From Nitratiruptor tergarcus DSM 16512 (GTDB lineage: Bacteria > Campylobacterota > Campylobacteria > Campylobacterales > Nitratiruptoraceae), in assembly GCF_027946175.1 (NCBI RefSeq), contig NZ_AP026671.1:1736001-1800000 (forward strand): a DNA stretch of 64,000 bases. Direction: 5' to 3'. Shown one piece after another: positions 1,023 to 52,046 of the stretch (position 1 is the stretch's first letter; every line of letters begins with the position of its first letter). The translations under genes and the position numbers were made by a program. The notes under the pieces are model-generated. The model was given only the letters and a program-made list of their open reading frames with translations, was not told the origin of the DNA and made no database searches.

Positions 1023-1931
1023 ATGAAGAGTATTTTTGAAGATATCTACTATCTCAAAGAGCGGATCCAAGAACCAGATCTCAAAGAAAAGCTCGAAAAT
1101 TTAGAGCAGCAGTTTCATCTATTGCGCACCAAAAATGGTCTCAAGCAACTTGTGAAGAAAAAGAAGCTCAAAAAAGCGATAGAGTATATCAAGTATGAAG
1201 ATGAACTTACAAGACTGCAGATTGAGCTTATTAAGATGCAAAACTGGATATATGAAAATAAAAAGAGGCTTATGATTATATTTGAAGGGCGTGACGCAGC
1301 GGGAAAAGGTGGTTCAATCAAACGCTTTACTATGCATCTCAATCCCAGAAAGTATCGTGTTGTTGCACTGCCTGCTCCAACTGAAGTAGAAAAAGGGCAG
1401 TTCTATTTTCAGAGATATTTTCAGCATTTGCCAAATCCTGGTGAAATTGCATTTTTTGATCGCAGCTGGTATAACCGTGCTATTGTGGAGCCAGTATATG
1501 GGTTTTGTACAAAGGAGCAGTATGAGAAGTTTATGATGGAAGTGCCGGAGATTGAGCATGCGCTGATTGATGATGGGATAATGCTTATAAAATTTTGGTT
1601 TTCTATCTCCAAAGAGACGCAAAAAAGACGATTTGAAGAGCGTATGCACAATCCTTTAAAACAGTGGAAACTCAGTCCAGTTGATATGAAAGCGCAAGAG
1701 TTATGGGATGAGATAACGCATTATAAAGAGGAGATGTTTAGCCGTACGCACACATCATATAGTCCTTGGATTATAGTCAACTCTAATAACAAAAAACTCG
1801 CACGTCTCGAGTCAATTCGCTATGTGCTCTCTCAAATTCCTTATAAAGGAAAAGAAGAAGCAAAAGTCTCTCTCCATCCCGATCCTGATATAGTACAGCG
1901 CTACCATAGAAAAAATATTCAGATAGATTGA
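1023..1931 (+). CDS. ppk2: Polyphosphate kinase 2 family protein, N-terminally extended
   Basis: PPK2 enzymes move the terminal phosphate between polyphosphate and nucleoside mono- or diphosphates in the cytoplasm. The protein has 302 residues. A Walker A loop GRDAAGKGG is at about residues 89-97 and the second signature FFDRSWYNR at about 144-152; RTHTSYSPW near the C terminus is also family-typical. About 50 charged, helical residues precede the core and are absent from the second PPK2 at 14096-14854. The gene stands alone with its own ribosome binding site. Which nucleotide it prefers (AMP, ADP or GDP) cannot be told from the motifs. Confidence 0.9.
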   Translation: MKSIFEDIYYLKERIQEPDLKEKLENLEQQFHLLRTKNGLKQLVKKKKLKKAIEYIKYEDELTRLQIELIKMQNWIYENKKRLMIIFEGRDAAGKGGSIKRFTMHLNPRKYRVVALPAPTEVEKGQFYFQRYFQHLPNPGEIAFFDRSWYNRAIVEPVYGFCTKEQYEKFMMEVPEIEHALIDDGIMLIKFWFSISKETQKRRFEERMHNPLKQWKLSPVDMKAQELWDEITHYKEEMFSRTHTSYSPWIIVNSNNKKLARLESIRYVLSQIPYKGKEEAKVSLHPDPDIVQRYHRKNIQID

Positions 1932-1949
1932 GATTTTTCTCAATCTATC
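1922..1949 (+). terminator. 12-bp perfect hairpin over the ppk2 stop codon
   Basis: GATAGATTGAGA (1922-1933), a TTTT loop, and the exact reverse complement at 1938-1949. The stop codon TGA (1929-1931) is inside the 5' arm. No T-tract follows directly, so it may be a weak terminator or a 3' mRNA-stabilising hairpin. The remaining bases up to 2195 are AT-rich and hold nothing else I can support. Confidence 0.5.
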
Positions 1950-5244: not shown

Positions 5245-5274
5245 TTTTTACGGTGCCATGTAGCACCGTAAAAA
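5245..5274. terminator. Symmetrical hairpin after the LVIVD gene
   Basis: TTTTTACGGTGC, a six-base loop, and GCACCGTAAAAA form a perfect 12-bp stem starting two bases after the LVIVD stop codon. The T-run is on the 5' arm and the A-run on the 3' arm, so it is not a textbook intrinsic terminator in either direction, but the position fits 3'-end formation. Bases 5275-5378 hold no other feature. Confidence 0.5.
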
Positions 5275-30130: not shown

Positions 30131-30886
30131 ATGAAAGAGATTTTACAAGAGGCAGGAGAGATTCTGCGCTATGGATATGAACATAATAAAAAGATATATA
30201 AAAAAGGGAGAGTGGATCTTGTAACAGAGTATGATCTCAAAATAGAGCAGTTTTTAAAAGAGCGACTCTCTAAACAGTATCCAGATTTTGTTATTGTTGG
30301 TGAAGAGAGTTTTGGTGGGGTTTTGCCAAAAAAAGCGATTTTTATCGATCCTATAGATGGAACTACAAATTTTGTCCACCATATTGCATATACATGTATT
30401 AGTGTAGGAGTTTGGGAAGATGGCGAGCCTTTGGAAGGAGCTATTTATAATCCTATTTTGGATGAGATGTTTTATGCTAAAAGAGGTGAAGGGGCATATC
30501 TCAATGATGAAGTGATCTCATGCAATAATACAGAAAATCTTATAGATGCACTACTGGCAACTGGTTTTCCTTATACAAAAACTGAGAAGGGAGCCGATTT
30601 TTATTTTGTCATTGAAACTATGAAAAATCTTCTTCCTTATACCCGCGATATCAGAAGGCTAGGAAGTGCAGCTATCGATCTTGCTTATGTTGCATGTGGA
30701 AGATTTGCAGGATTTTATGAAGTCAATCTCAAACCTTGGGATGTAGCAGCTGGAATTTTACTCGTAAAAGAAGCAGGAGGTAAAGTGACAAACCATCTAG
30801 GAAAGCCTTACAAATTTGGTGATATTATCGTAGCTAGCAATGGCATACTCCATGAAGCATTACTAACCAAAATGGGAAGATGGTAG
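30131..30886 (+). CDS. Inositol monophosphatase family protein
   Basis: This 251-residue protein carries the Mg2+/Li+-site motifs GEES, DPIDGTTNFVH and, near the C terminus, WDVAAGILLVKEAGG. These enzymes dephosphorylate inositol phosphates, histidinol phosphate, fructose 1,6-bisphosphate or PAP; the motifs do not say which. The start codon follows AGAAGGTTA. It is a single gene, divergent from htrA and convergent with the BON protein gene. Confidence 0.85.
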   Translation: MKEILQEAGEILRYGYEHNKKIYKKGRVDLVTEYDLKIEQFLKERLSKQYPDFVIVGEESFGGVLPKKAIFIDPIDGTTNFVHHIAYTCISVGVWEDGEPLEGAIYNPILDEMFYAKRGEGAYLNDEVISCNNTENLIDALLATGFPYTKTEKGADFYFVIETMKNLLPYTRDIRRLGSAAIDLAYVACGRFAGFYEVNLKPWDVAAGILLVKEAGGKVTNHLGKPYKFGDIIVASNGILHEALLTKMGRW

Positions 30887-30900
30887 TAATGCTTCTCAAG

Positions 30901-31367: not shown

Positions 31368-32238
31368 GAATTGACTCCTGGATTTTTTCTTTAGCTATTT
31401 CAAATGCACGTTTGCCCATTTTTTTGGCTTCATCAGCACTGATTTTAATGGATGGTGCCTCTTTGAGAAGCTCATTGAAACTCTTTTTCAAGCCTTTGAC
31501 TGCTTTTTGTGCTTCAGTGAGCAGTTTATCGTAAATTGGTTGTTCGGCAATTTGCAGGATTTTCTCTTTAATACCAGGCTCACTCTTTTGTGCTACCTCT
31601 TCGATACTTTTATAAAAGATCTCATCAATGTGAGGGAGATTTTGAATAATGGTTTCATAATTTTCAATAATGAGCGATCTTGCCTCATCTGGCGTAAACT
31701 CCACTGTTTCGTTAAATTTTGCAAGGCTTTTATGGATGCCTTGTTTGGTACCATAAATTGCACCTTTTATGATCTCATCAGCGTGATTGATACTTGCTTC
31801 AGCGATATTTGCAGCAACTTGAATGATGGTTGTACTAGTATTTTTGATATGGGTTGGATCTACATTGATATTTATCGTTTCAAATGCAAGATCTTTTGTA
31901 ATTTCTGTGATTGTCTCTTCTATATTTTCACCATTTTCCAAGGCATTGAGGATAGCACTCTCCACAGTTTCTGCTAAGATACCTAAAAACTCCAATGAGT
32001 GGAGTTTGCATTCATGCAAAGTACGCAGAGCCTCTTGGCGCTCATTTTCTGGAAGGTTTTCTATTTGGGATTCTATATCTTCAAAAAGAAGAGCTAAATC
32101 GCTACGGAGTTCTTGTTTTTGTGCTTCAACTTCTGCTCTGAGTCTGTCGATTTGAAAAAGAAGCTCTTTGATTTTTTGGATTCTTGGTTTTTTAACCTCT
32201 TCGATCCGTTTGATAAGATGTTTTTTAAAGTTGCTCAT
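31351..32238 (-). CDS. Long helical protein of unknown function
   Basis: This 295-residue protein has no signal or membrane helix. The N-terminal 80 residues form a likely coiled coil (RIQKIKELLFQIDRLRAEVE); the rest is helical with repeated acidic stretches and lacks Cys almost completely. It resembles proteins known only as hypothetical in this phylum. It shares an operon with the periplasmic BON protein, with a 17-base overlap. An envelope- or stress-related scaffold role would be a guess. Confidence 0.6.
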   Translation of the reverse strand: MSNFKKHLIKRIEEVKKPRIQKIKELLFQIDRLRAEVEAQKQELRSDLALLFEDIESQIENLPENERQEALRTLHECKLHSLEFLGILAETVESAILNALENGENIEETITEITKDLAFETININVDPTHIKNTSTTIIQVAANIAEASINHADEIIKGAIYGTKQGIHKSLAKFNETVEFTPDEARSLIIENYETIIQNLPHIDEIFYKSIEEVAQKSEPGIKEKILQIAEQPIYDKLLTEAQKAVKGLKKSFNELLKEAPSIKISADEAKKMGKRAFEIAKEKIQESIHAIKK

Positions 32239-32275
32239 AGTCCAACCTTTTGTAAAGTTGGACTATTATAACAAA

Positions 32276-48072: not shown

Positions 48073-49133
48073 AAATAGCTCTTCTTGGCTCAACTGGCTC
48101 AATTGGTACCAACACGCTTGAGGTATGCAGACGCTATGGGATTGAAGTTGAGGTGTTGGTTGCAGGGAATAATATCGATCTGCTTGCAAAGCAGATAGAA
48201 GAGTTTCGACCGCGTATTGTGGTAAGTGCAAAGAGAGCTAATTTTGATGCTCCTGTGGTACTCCATGGGCAGGAGGGGATCTTGCAAGCGCTTACGATGT
48301 GTGAGAGTGAGCTTGTTGTCAATGCGCTTGTTGGCTTTTTGGGACTACGCCCAACACTCAAAGCGATTGAGCTTGGCAAAAGGGTTGCACTTGCGAATAA
48401 AGAGAGTCTTGTAGTTGCGGGAAAGTTTATTGATGTATCAAAGCTACGCCCCATCGATAGTGAGCACTTTGGTCTTTGGTATCTTTTGCAAAGTGCTCGC
48501 CAACCAAAAAGGCTCATTCTCACTGCAAGCGGGGGAGCCTTGAGGGATTGGGAGATCGAAAGAATTGCTCATGCTTCTTTGCAAGATGTACTTAATCATC
48601 CCAACTGGTCTATGGGAACAAAGATTACTATTGATAGTGCTACAATGGTGAATAAACTCTTTGAAGTTTTAGAAGCCTACTGGCTTTTTGAGACAAAGCA
48701 TATAGATGCTGTGATTGAGCCAAGCTCTTTGGTGCATGGGATTGTGGAGTTTATGGATGGAAGCACTACTATGCATGCAAGCAAAACAGACATGAAGCTA
48801 CCTATCGCTTATGCTCTTGGGATTATGGATGAGCCGATTTTGAGCAATGTAGATCTTTTAGCAATGAATATAGCTTTTAGGGCTATTGATAGTGAGCGCT
48901 ATCCTGTATGGCAGATAAAAGATGCACTTTTACAACATCCAGATTGTGGAGTTGTTGTGAACGCAGCAAATGAAGCAGCAATTGAGAGATTTTTAAAAGG
49001 AAGTTTTACTTTTGGTGATATAGCACAAGCTATTTTACAAGCTTTTGAGCGCTTTGAGGGCAGAGTGGTAAACGATATTGAAGAGATATTTGCTATTGAT
49101 GAAGAGGTACGTAATTATGTTAAAACTCTTTAA
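48069..49133 (+). CDS. dxr: 1-deoxy-D-xylulose-5-phosphate reductoisomerase
   Basis: This 354-residue protein begins MKIALLGSTGSIGTNTLEV (NADPH loop), then ANKESLVVAGKF, the substrate/metal region DSEHFGLWY (most bacteria have DSEHSA), WSMGTKITIDSATM and EPSSLVHGIVEF. It is the second enzyme of the MEP isoprenoid pathway. It is shorter than the usual 390-400 residues, as in relatives. The 3' end overlaps the lipoprotein gene by 17 bases. Confidence 0.93.
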   Translation: MKIALLGSTGSIGTNTLEVCRRYGIEVEVLVAGNNIDLLAKQIEEFRPRIVVSAKRANFDAPVVLHGQEGILQALTMCESELVVNALVGFLGLRPTLKAIELGKRVALANKESLVVAGKFIDVSKLRPIDSEHFGLWYLLQSARQPKRLILTASGGALRDWEIERIAHASLQDVLNHPNWSMGTKITIDSATMVNKLFEVLEAYWLFETKHIDAVIEPSSLVHGIVEFMDGSTTMHASKTDMKLPIAYALGIMDEPILSNVDLLAMNIAFRAIDSERYPVWQIKDALLQHPDCGVVVNAANEAAIERFLKGSFTFGDIAQAILQAFERFEGRVVNDIEEIFAIDEEVRNYVKTL

Positions 49134-49833: not shown

Positions 49834-50383
49834 GTTTTTGCTTTTGCATGGTTGGGGAGGAAGTGACTATCCCCATTGGCAAAGTTGGTTAGCAGGAGAG
49901 CTAGCTAAAGAGTATGGGACGGTGAGTTTCCCACTCATTCATCATCCTCATCATCCAAACAAAAAAAAGTGGATGAATCAGTTCAAAAAGCATCTTAAAA
50001 CATTTCGACCGACTACTGTCATTTGCCACTCTCTTGCTTGTACCGTTTGGTTGGCTTTGTGTGAAGAGGGGGAGATTGATGAAGTAGAGAGGCTTTTGCT
50101 TGTAGCACCTCCGAGTCAAAATACAGATATTGAGCTACTCAAGCAGTTTTTCCCTCACTCTCTTCCTCAAAGACTCTATGCAGATGAAGTGCAGCTAGTC
50201 GTTTCAACGAATGATCCATACTTGAAGATTGAAGAGGCTCATGATTTACAGCGCCATTTTGATTGTGAGATGCTGATACTAGAAAATGCAGGGCACATAA
50301 ATGATAAAAGTGGCTATGGCCAGTGGCCATGGGTGCTTGCGTGGGCAAAGAGAGATCCAAGTTTACTATCGGAGCCGTTATGA
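49826..50383 (+). CDS. RBBP9/YdeN-type alpha/beta hydrolase
   Basis: This 185-residue protein has the oxyanion region [20 protein letters not shown], the nucleophile elbow CHSLAC (a variant of GxSxG) and the catalytic His in [16 protein letters not shown]. These match the small RBBP9/YdeN serine hydrolases. The substrate is unknown. It overlaps its upstream and downstream neighbours by eight and four bases. Confidence 0.85.
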
Positions 50384-51369
50384 TTTTGAGCATTGAGAGT
50401 AGTTGTGATGATAGCTCTATTGCAGTGACACGCATTAGTGATTATAAACTTCTCTTTCACAAAAAAATCTCCCAAGAGCTAGCACATAGTGAATATGGTG
50501 GTGTTGTACCAGAGCTTGCAAGCAGGCTGCATGCTGAAGCTTTGCCAAAGATTTTAGAAGAGGCAAAGGAGTTTTTGCCTCATATCAAAGCAGTAGCAGT
50601 GACAAATGAGCCAGGGCTCTCTGTGACGCTTATGGAGGGCGTTATGATGGCAAAGGCTTTGCATCTAGCTCTAGGTGTTCCCCTCATTGGTGTTAATCAT
50701 CTAGTAGGACATATCTACTCCCTCTTTATAGAGCAAGAATCTAGGCTGCCAAAGATGGTATTGCTTGTAAGTGGTGGGCATACAATGATTTTGGATGTAA
50801 AGGGTTACAACGATCTCAAAGTCTTAGCTACTACGCTTGATGATAGTTTTGGTGAGAGCTTTGATAAGGTTGCAAAGATGATGGGACTAGGATATCCTGG
50901 AGGACCAATTATCGAAAAACTAGCTCGCCAGGGGGATCCAAACCGTTTTTCTTTTCCTATTCCACTCAAAAGCAGCTCCAAGCTTGCTTTTAGTTACTCT
51001 GGACTCAAAAATGCAGTGCGCTTGGCTTTGGAAGAAATTGAAAATCTCAGTCGCCAAGATATGGCAGATATTGCAGCCTCTTTTCAAAAAGCTGCAATTA
51101 CACACCTTTTGCAAAAAACCAAAAAAGCGTGTGAAATCTATACACCTAGTGATTTTGCAATAGTTGGCGGGGCGAGTGCGAATCTTGCCTTGCGTGAAAT
51201 TTTTGAGAAGGAGTGCGCAAAACGGGGTATCCCTATAGAGTTTGCAAAGCTAGAGTTTTGCAGTGATAATGCAGCAATGATTGGACGGGCTGCTATTGAA
51301 GCATATAAAAGGGGTGATTTTATTGCGATGGAGGATCTCAAAGTTTTGCCACGCAGCTGTTTTGTGTAG
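50380..51369 (+). CDS. tsaD: tRNA N6-threonylcarbamoyladenosine transferase TsaD
   Basis: This 329-residue protein begins [16 protein letters not shown]. The metal-binding HxxxH is in [10 protein letters not shown], followed by [26 protein letters not shown] and the C-terminal CSDNAAMIG. It forms the t6A base at position 37 of ANN-decoding tRNAs with TsaB and TsaE, which are not in the window. ATG 50380 overlaps the hydrolase stop (ATGA). Confidence 0.95.
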
Positions 51370-51406
51370 AAAAGTAACATAGTTTATTATAATTACAGCC
51401 CTCATA

Positions 51407-51443
51407 TTAAATAAGATAAAAATTGTCTTATTTAAGCTATAAT
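51407..51443 (+). promoter_or_regulatory. Palindromic operator candidate and -10 box of tpx
   Basis: TTAAATAAGA (51407-51416), nine bases, then the exact reverse complement TCTTATTTAA (51426-51435), followed after two bases by TATAAT (51438-51443). The dyad covers the -35 region, so a bound dimer could repress or activate tpx. Peroxide-responsive regulators of this phylum (PerR/Fur type) bind A/T-rich dyads, but the exact sequence is not one I can assign. Confidence 0.6.
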
Positions 51444-51493
51444 TTCTTCATGAGCATCTGCTCCAAAATAAAAATATGAAAAAGGAGGTTGCA

Positions 51494-52009
51494 ATGGCAA
51501 CTGTTACACTAAAAGGAAATCCAGTAAATTTGGAAGGAAATGAAGTAAATGTTGGAGATAAAGCTCCTGAGGCTACTGTAGTAACTACTGATTTGGCAGA
51601 GAAAAAAGTAGGTGGTGCACAAGATAAAGTACAAATGATTGTTGTTGTTCCTTCACTTGATACACCAGTGTGTGCAACTGAAACAAGAAAATTTAACGAA
51701 GAAGCTTCTAATATTGAAGGTGTAGATGTTACTGTTGTTTCTATGGACCTTCCATTTGCAAGTAAGAGATTTTGCTCTACTGAAGGTGTAGAAAACCTAA
51801 CAGTTGCAAGTGACTATAGAAACAGAGATTTTGGTGAAAAATATGGTGTTGTAATCGCTGAAGGTCCTCTTAAAGGGATCCTTGCAAGAGCGATTTTTAT
51901 CATCGATAAAAACGGAAACGTTGTTTATAAGCAACTCGTTCCTGAAATCACAGAAGAGCCTAACTATCAAGAAGCTCTCGAAGCTGCGAAAAAAGCGGCA
52001 GCTGCATAA
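51494..52009 (+). CDS. tpx: Thiol peroxidase Tpx
   Basis: This 171-residue atypical 2-Cys peroxiredoxin has the peroxidatic Cys60 in SLDTPVCATETRKF and the resolving Cys94 in KRFCSTEGVENL, with spacing as in E. coli Tpx (61/95). It reduces H2O2 and alkyl peroxides using thioredoxin. The start is ATG 51494 behind AAAAGGAGG; an ATG at 51476 lies ahead of that site. The gene is monocistronic, with its own promoter dyad and terminator. Confidence 0.95.
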   Translation: MATVTLKGNPVNLEGNEVNVGDKAPEATVVTTDLAEKKVGGAQDKVQMIVVVPSLDTPVCATETRKFNEEASNIEGVDVTVVSMDLPFASKRFCSTEGVENLTVASDYRNRDFGEKYGVVIAEGPLKGILARAIFIIDKNGNVVYKQLVPEITEEPNYQEALEAAKKAAAA

Positions 52010-52018
52010 AAACTTCTC

Positions 52019-52046
52019 AGGGGCTTTGCCCCTTACACTCTTTTTT
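52019..52046 (+). terminator. Terminator after tpx
   Basis: AGGGGC, TTT, GCCCCT forms a tight GC stem; a run of six T residues follows at 52041-52046 after a seven-base gap. It starts ten bases after the stop. Confidence 0.7.

Follow-up and report, generated by a model that had tools for sequence, protein, structure and literature searches.

A conserved inverted repeat at the tpx promoter of Nitratiruptor tergarcus, a likely operator of an IscR/RisR-like Rrf2-family regulator of Fe-S assembly and peroxide defence genes

The inverted repeat in front of tpx in a 64,000-nucleotide stretch of the Nitratiruptor tergarcus DSM 16512 genome (hereafter, the window is the whole of this stretch) is likely to be the operator of an Fe-S-sensing repressor of the Rrf2 family, similar to IscR and RisR, under which tpx and Fe-S repair genes would be derepressed by oxidative or iron stress. 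The best candidate for this regulator, judging from sequence, is an Rrf2-family protein encoded outside the window.

The first-pass annotation of this DNA had described a perfect 10-bp inverted repeat, TTAAATAAGA-N9-TCTTATTTAA at 51407-51435, that ends two bases before TATAAT and precedes a peroxide-scavenging gene. Reading of the sequence bore this out in each respect: the two intervening bases are GC, the downstream gene is tpx, and the dyad lies between tsaD and tpx, which are 124 bp apart (Table 1). The tpx product is a thiol peroxidase according to NCBIfam (PRK00522, 229.1 bits versus a cut-off of 123) and Pfam (Redoxin); the mechanical ORF begins at 51476, and the ATG at 51494 is the most likely start. 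A second TATAAT is present 5' of the dyad (window 51388-51393), possibly belonging to another promoter, and is absent from the relatives L013 and L014. An AGTAACA near 51373 resembles the HP1021 box (KGTWDCD; PMC8266642) and was rejected as being at chance level, with 38 matches in the window versus 48 expected. At the tpx transcript start (window 51452-51463) a short hairpin, GAGC-ATCT-GCTC, is possible, and the tpx leaders of L007, L008, L009, L011, L016, and L020 have hairpins of about 7 bp that vary in sequence between species. The energies of the leader hairpins are only slightly below those of shuffled sequences, and the predicted fold of the window's tpx leader pairs CTCC with the GGAG of the ribosome binding site instead of forming the GAGC/GCTC hairpin. 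Behind tpx, a terminator-like element is present at window 52020-52045 (GGGGCTTTGCCCC, some bases, then a T run).

Table 1. Features of the tsaD-tpx region (window coordinates)
Feature	Position	Strand	Basis or remark
tsaD, upstream gene (mechanical start)	50323..51369	+	NCBIfam name; end 37 bp 5' of dyad
Dyad left arm, TTAAATAAGA	51407..51416	+	Sequence read
25-bp core, in register with IscR type-1 site	51409..51433	.	Register scan
AT-rich spacer TAAAAATTG, 9 bp	51417..51425	.	Symmetry axis at 51421
Dyad right arm, TCTTATTTAA	51426..51435	+	Sequence read
tpx promoter -10 hexamer, TATAAT	51438..51443	+	Sequence read; relatives arranged similarly
tpx RBS, AAGGAGG	51482-51488	+	Sequence read
tpx, thiol peroxidase, 171 aa from ATG	51494..52009	+	ATG behind AAGGAGG

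A lone dyad of this kind is mildly improbable and is weak evidence by itself, because such inverted repeats are numerous in the window: perfect repeats with 10-bp arms separated by 3-20 bp account for 11 hits at 6 places, versus a mean of 2.69 (maximum 13) under a first-order Markov model, with 0.24 expected for gap 9 alone. The other places are window 1922-1949, 5245-5274, 30855-30894, 32237-32266, and 48462-48498. The exact dyad pattern with up to three mismatches occurs once in the window (0.04 expected) and at six places in the whole genome, where the pattern read backwards occurs at one.

Strong evidence that the dyad is real comes from its conservation. In a comparison of tpx upstream regions that took in relatives with a Tpx identity of at least 66%, the same element adjoins the -10 region, in the form AATTAAGAC-NNAATTTTA-TCCTATTTAG followed by a TATAAT-like box. 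Alignment A1 holds 50 tpx sites (at least 18/24 against a consensus drawn up by hand, and in addition five family members with lower scores), and its invariant positions are A6, G11, A12, T22, and C23; in the window, G51415 and A51416 of the left arm and T51426 and C51427 of the right arm are invariant in 50/50 aligned sites. To reduce circularity, a matrix was also derived from 31 tpx sites outside the family (that of the Nitratiruptor relatives), "outside" being defined as a Tpx with at most 77% identity to that of the window. With this matrix, the tpx upstream regions of all 20 family genomes (19 relatives and N. tergarcus itself) score 15.4-39.3, including 30.5 for the site in the window, while only 2/200 Markov controls reach 10 (maximum 12.5). 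The same matrix ranks the tpx dyad first and second (its two strands) in the window, and the next score is 9.5. Absence of the dyad upstream of tpx in close relatives, which had been named in advance as grounds for abandoning it, is not what was found: it is present in 19/19 family relatives with a full-length tpx; two further family relatives, G008 and G019, have no full-length copy. Relative G007 has two copies of tpx (C28:1001-1525 and C91:3960-4484), with 94% and 93% identity to the window's Tpx.

This conservation bears on whether the dyad could be a chance feature of AT-rich promoter DNA, or a structural one such as an RNA hairpin or terminator of tsaD. The six perfect inverted repeats of such size in the window would be compatible with this, as would the joint variation of the two arms in some relatives (AAGA/TCTT, AGGA/TCCT). 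However, the covariation is slight (the A/G position pairs match in 25/50 sites versus 18.8 expected), the element adjoins the -10 at tpx in 20/20 family genomes, and it recurs before unrelated genes. An RNA hairpin or terminator was rejected on these three grounds, and a chance or structural origin is scarcely credible overall.

To search genomes, a model (R1) was built from alignment A1; because the training tpx sites had been chosen by score, its matches at tpx are partly circular. In N. tergarcus, R1 finds 14 places at E<0.1, of which 13 are near gene starts; one place lies inside a Cas10/Csm1 gene and is probably due to chance. The targets in Fe-S assembly are sufE, an operon with a SufT/MIP18-type gene, nfu (NifU-domain), sufB, and mrp/apbC. 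Others are ubiD, the gene for a desulfoferrodoxin-type superoxide reductase, tpx, thiG, napA, speE, and por, a pyruvate:ferredoxin oxidoreductase gene, as well as trxA, whose site is 84 bp away and overlaps the end of the preceding gene. At E 0.1-1 the matches are mostly intragenic or without a clear neighbour. The first-pass annotation had proposed scanning the genome for the same dyad near oxidative-stress genes; the superoxide reductase gene, tpx, and trxA are indeed preceded by it, and the genes found besides these include those of Fe-S assembly. The ubiD gene is divergent from sufB and has its own copy of the site, such that the intergenic region (G000:C1:512658-512726, G000 being the N. 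tergarcus genome) contains a pair of complete dyads whose starts are separated by 36 bp. A dyad pair of this type is also present in several relatives (L145, L215, L225, L242, L263, L266, and L272).

The same pattern is seen across relatives. Every genome of the relatives sample (N. tergarcus and 59 others) has a match at E<=1, which is a loose threshold. Among the matches listed, there are 80 further ones (strands merged), and 64 of these, many of them orthologs in close relatives, precede ten target groups: superoxide reductase (15), sufB (12), mrp (8), sufE (7), thiG (6), nfu (5), the sufT operon (4), nifS-type genes (4), tpx (2), and napA (1). Nearly all of these groups are Fe-S assembly or oxidant defence, and the remaining 16 of the 80 matches have other, unclear, or intragenic neighbours. 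In family f11, the site precedes nifS in 7/8 genomes examined, most of these genes (and three of the four nifS-type genes among the 64) being named by N-terminal sequence only; one f11 locus, L319, is nifS_epsilon by NCBIfam. Other or intragenic neighbours account for 17/30 loci of the f11 search. The operator thus seems to accompany Fe-S assembly whether the machinery is SUF or NIF, and its place before Fe-S assembly genes is as in an IscR-like regulon. The earlier interpretation of the dyad is partly supported: the site is neither specific to tpx nor primarily a peroxide operator, and instead marks an Fe-S assembly regulon. Among individual site copies, one (L285) is followed by a flavodoxin gene, and two (L315 806-1189 and L276 1540-1914) are followed by genes for short, related-looking proteins that by eye resemble thioredoxin-fold [2Fe-2S] ferredoxins and have no Pfam hit at 1e-8.

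Orthologs of one Rrf2-family protein of N. tergarcus, defined by a profile E<=1e-48, are absent from 8/59 relatives, and the gene (rrf2) is present in 18/23 families of the sample. At E<0.003, a threshold set after the values were seen, the motif is present in 48/51 relatives with rrf2 and in 2/8 without it (Fisher 4.7e-5); the other three rrf2-bearing relatives have weak motifs only. Both of the rrf2-less genomes with strong motifs are incomplete assemblies (G002, 79% complete; G057, 82%), and when they are left out the motif is present in 0/6 rrf2-less genomes (Fisher 2.3e-6). A rank test of motif against rrf2 gives 8.6e-5 without the two incomplete assemblies and 0.009 with them. In an even sample of the class (298 genomes), the motif occurs at E<=0.01 in 187/208 genomes with the ortholog and in 11/90 without it; all 11 of the latter and nearly all ortholog-less genomes listed belong to one family (f14), and therefore few independent events lie behind this count. 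Similarly, within the set covered, tpx upstream regions score at least 10 in 13/15 ortholog-bearing genomes and in 0/5 ortholog-less ones.

The site thus tracks the Rrf2-family gene and not Fur/PerR. A Fur-family regulator (PerR or Fur) acting at an unusual box, with tpx as an ordinary gene of the peroxide regulon, would explain the presence of tpx and superoxide reductase as oxidant-defence genes behind the site, and the N. tergarcus genome holds two Fur-family genes. However, Fur-family proteins are encoded in 60/60 genomes, including several without a strong motif, and therefore do not track it. Additionally, Fe-S assembly is the main theme among the genes that follow the site, and neither Fur-family gene of N. 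tergarcus has an R1 match at E<5 within 2 kb. The compact Fur/PerR box also looks unlike a spaced 25-bp palindrome. Control by Fur or PerR is accordingly quite improbable, and the earlier statement that the dyad is not a recognisable PerR box is supported.

The candidate rrf2 gene (L190) is located at about G000:C1:877482-877886. Its product belongs to the Rrf2 superfamily (TIGR00738, 106.4 bits versus 73.3; PF02082, 101.9 versus 30) and its sequence matches PDB chains of IscR and other Rrf2 proteins, and yet it falls below the IscR equivalog cut-offs (TIGR02010, 66.1 versus 207.55; PRK10857, 42.9 versus 275), and no named NCBIfam equivalog scores above its cut-off. Cys91, Cys98, and Cys106 are invariant in 45/45 aligned orthologs, and the candidate would thereby have the three cysteines in the cluster loop that are a trait of Fe-S-binding Rrf2 proteins. 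The gene adjoins no isc or suf genes: an integrase-core ORF is upstream, and an ORF without a Pfam hit is downstream. Near-identical integrase-core ORFs occur at L190 1-1290 and L155 1-831, one of which ends about 200 bp before the rrf2 start. The rrf2 promoter itself has a site with a score of at least 10 in 16/20 family orthologs and 8/25 others, versus 0/225 Markov versions, with no such site in the other 4/20 and 17/25; in most cases the dyad lies 45-60 bp upstream of the rrf2 start and adjoins or merges with the -10. In N. tergarcus the rrf2 site is weak (score 10.8, E about 1), and the insertion element beside the regulator may bear on this. A second Rrf2 gene of N. tergarcus (L191, CymR-like) was considered and rejected as the regulator: its best site scores 5.2 over its whole 3.3-kb stretch, and many motif-bearing genomes hold one Rrf2 match only.

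The geometry of the site resembles that of an IscR type-1 operator in part. The palindrome axis falls on a base, with the invariant GA at -6/-5 and TC at +5/+6, offsets shared with the E. coli type-1 consensus of IscR given in PMC6599224. When the type-1 consensus is slid along A1, the register with a common axis is the best of 11 (20.74 versus 18.32 for the next). Of the GAC-N7-GTC core of this consensus, A1 shares GA and TC; its third core base can be C, G, or T, and A or T prevails at the outer S/Y positions.

The placement of the site relative to promoters varies between targets. At tpx it takes up the -35/spacer region as far as the -10; in front of nfu and the sufT operon it starts in or after TATAAT and extends to the ribosome binding site (by eye); and at rrf2 one dyad arm merges with the -10. 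The dyad is therefore over or next to core promoter elements, which fits repression, and blocking of polymerase at tpx, nfu, the sufT operon, and rrf2 would be the simplest reading. In Pseudomonas aeruginosa, IscR represses tpx and nfuA via single type-1 sites that cover or overlap the -35; PB treatment induces the two genes in the wild type, and in an iscR mutant their expression is constitutively high (PMC6599224). On this precedent, holo-Rrf2 would repress and cluster loss would derepress.

In the mechanism that we propose, a homodimeric Rrf2-family factor that binds an Fe-S cluster would recognise the dyad in the manner of IscR and RisR. When Fe-S cluster is sufficient, the holo-dimer would occupy the 25-bp palindrome and block RNA polymerase at tpx. 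Peroxide, superoxide, or iron shortage would damage or deplete the cluster and release the protein, leading to joint induction of tpx, superoxide reductase, thioredoxin, the sufB operon, sufE, nfu, the sufT operon, and mrp; the regulator would also damp its own gene. The first-pass annotation had taken the dyad to be the operator of a dimeric redox regulator, and conservation supports an operator of a dimeric regulator; we infer its redox-responsiveness and signal, its binding to the dyad, the presence of a cluster, and that it represses instead of activating. Activation of tpx by the same Rrf2 protein, or action of its apo form as with IscR at type-2 sites, has some precedent, in that type-2 promoters of E. 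coli are under the control of apo-IscR, which also activates suf (PMC12594620). However, the dyad abuts or overlaps the core promoter at tpx, nfu, the sufT operon, and rrf2, where blocking is simpler, and its geometry fits type 1 best in register, making activation or apo-form action unlikely.

The position of the dyad at tpx could also suggest a CosR/HP1043-type site, at which an OmpR-family orphan regulator acts just 5' of the -10 and replaces the -35. HP1043 sites are located upstream of the -10 in -35-less promoters (PMC5253667), CosR, a regulator of oxidative-stress genes, covers -37 to -17 of ahpC (PMC3139631), and fldA is an HP1043 peak, to which the flavodoxin gene behind the L285 copy may be compared. 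However, HP1043 reads direct repeats, TTTAAG-N5-TTTAAG (PMC5253667), whereas the dyad is an inverted repeat with invariant GA...TC; a single TTTAAG is present at 51431-51436, with no second copy 11 bp to either side. Additionally, nfu and the sufT operon have the site within or downstream of the -10, and among 30 of the 37 HP1043 peaks, mostly tRNA, rRNA, and other genes, there is no Fe-S assembly gene. A CosR/HP1043 site was rejected on repeat type and targets and has only a slim chance of being correct; repression by an Fe-S-sensing Rrf2 protein is the preferred reading.

Many Campylobacterota inhabit oxic-anoxic borders, where Fe-S damage is a main stress. On balance, it seems probable that in most families of this phylum a single dedicated regulator responds to Fe-S status. 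With an operator and a Cys spacing of its own, it would link defence against peroxide and superoxide, along with electron-carrier genes, to whichever of SUF or NIF is in use, and both the regulator and its operators would be missing from several lineages. If so, this regulator would take the place that OxyR, SoxR, and IscR have elsewhere. A function is thereby proposed for a conserved, unnamed Rrf2 gene, and the 25-bp operator predicts its targets. In the open-licence literature, as far as its accessible text extends, we found no report of an Rrf2 or IscR-type regulator or regulon of this kind in Campylobacterota. The Rrf2-family gene CJJ81176_0891 of Campylobacter jejuni 81-176 is listed in PMC5438104 as a mouse-colonisation determinant with no significant growth defect in rich medium. 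It is a possible ortholog of the candidate, and the operator preceding nifS in f11 opens a role in Fe-S control to testing.

Overall, the kind of regulator is known (Rrf2/IscR/RisR), and its predicted operator and Cys spacing are its own. NsrR, RirA, and CymR are members of the same superfamily, but the candidate scores far lower than the respective NCBIfam cut-offs (42.7/182, 48.9/193, and 39.7/195). Their target genes also differ from those of the candidate. CosR/HP1043 (HsrA) resembles the system described here in being campylobacterotal, in acting just 5' of the -10, and in touching oxidative-stress genes, but differs in its direct-repeat site, OmpR family membership, and target set. RisR of Myxococcus xanthus is an Rrf2 protein that represses Fe-S assembly via GAC-N7-GTC in AT-rich surroundings (PMC9973013), a spacing equal to the GA(N)-N7-(N)TC found here. 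In contrast, the RisR gene is beside suf, its cysteines are at 92/102/108, and the text available from PMC9973013 contains no link to tpx, superoxide reductase, or NIF. IscR has cysteines at 92/98/104 (PMC6599224), and thus an X5/X5 spacing versus X6/X7 in the candidate, which is below the equivalog cut-off; additionally, the operator here is AT-rich, the gene is outside any isc/suf operon, and the sites precede SUF or NIF genes. Nevertheless, the gammaproteobacterial IscR is likewise an Rrf2-family protein with three cysteines and a 25-bp palindrome in which GA..TC are at equal offsets, and the P. aeruginosa IscR similarly targets tpx, nfu, and Fe-S assembly, with an operator over the -35 region of tpx.
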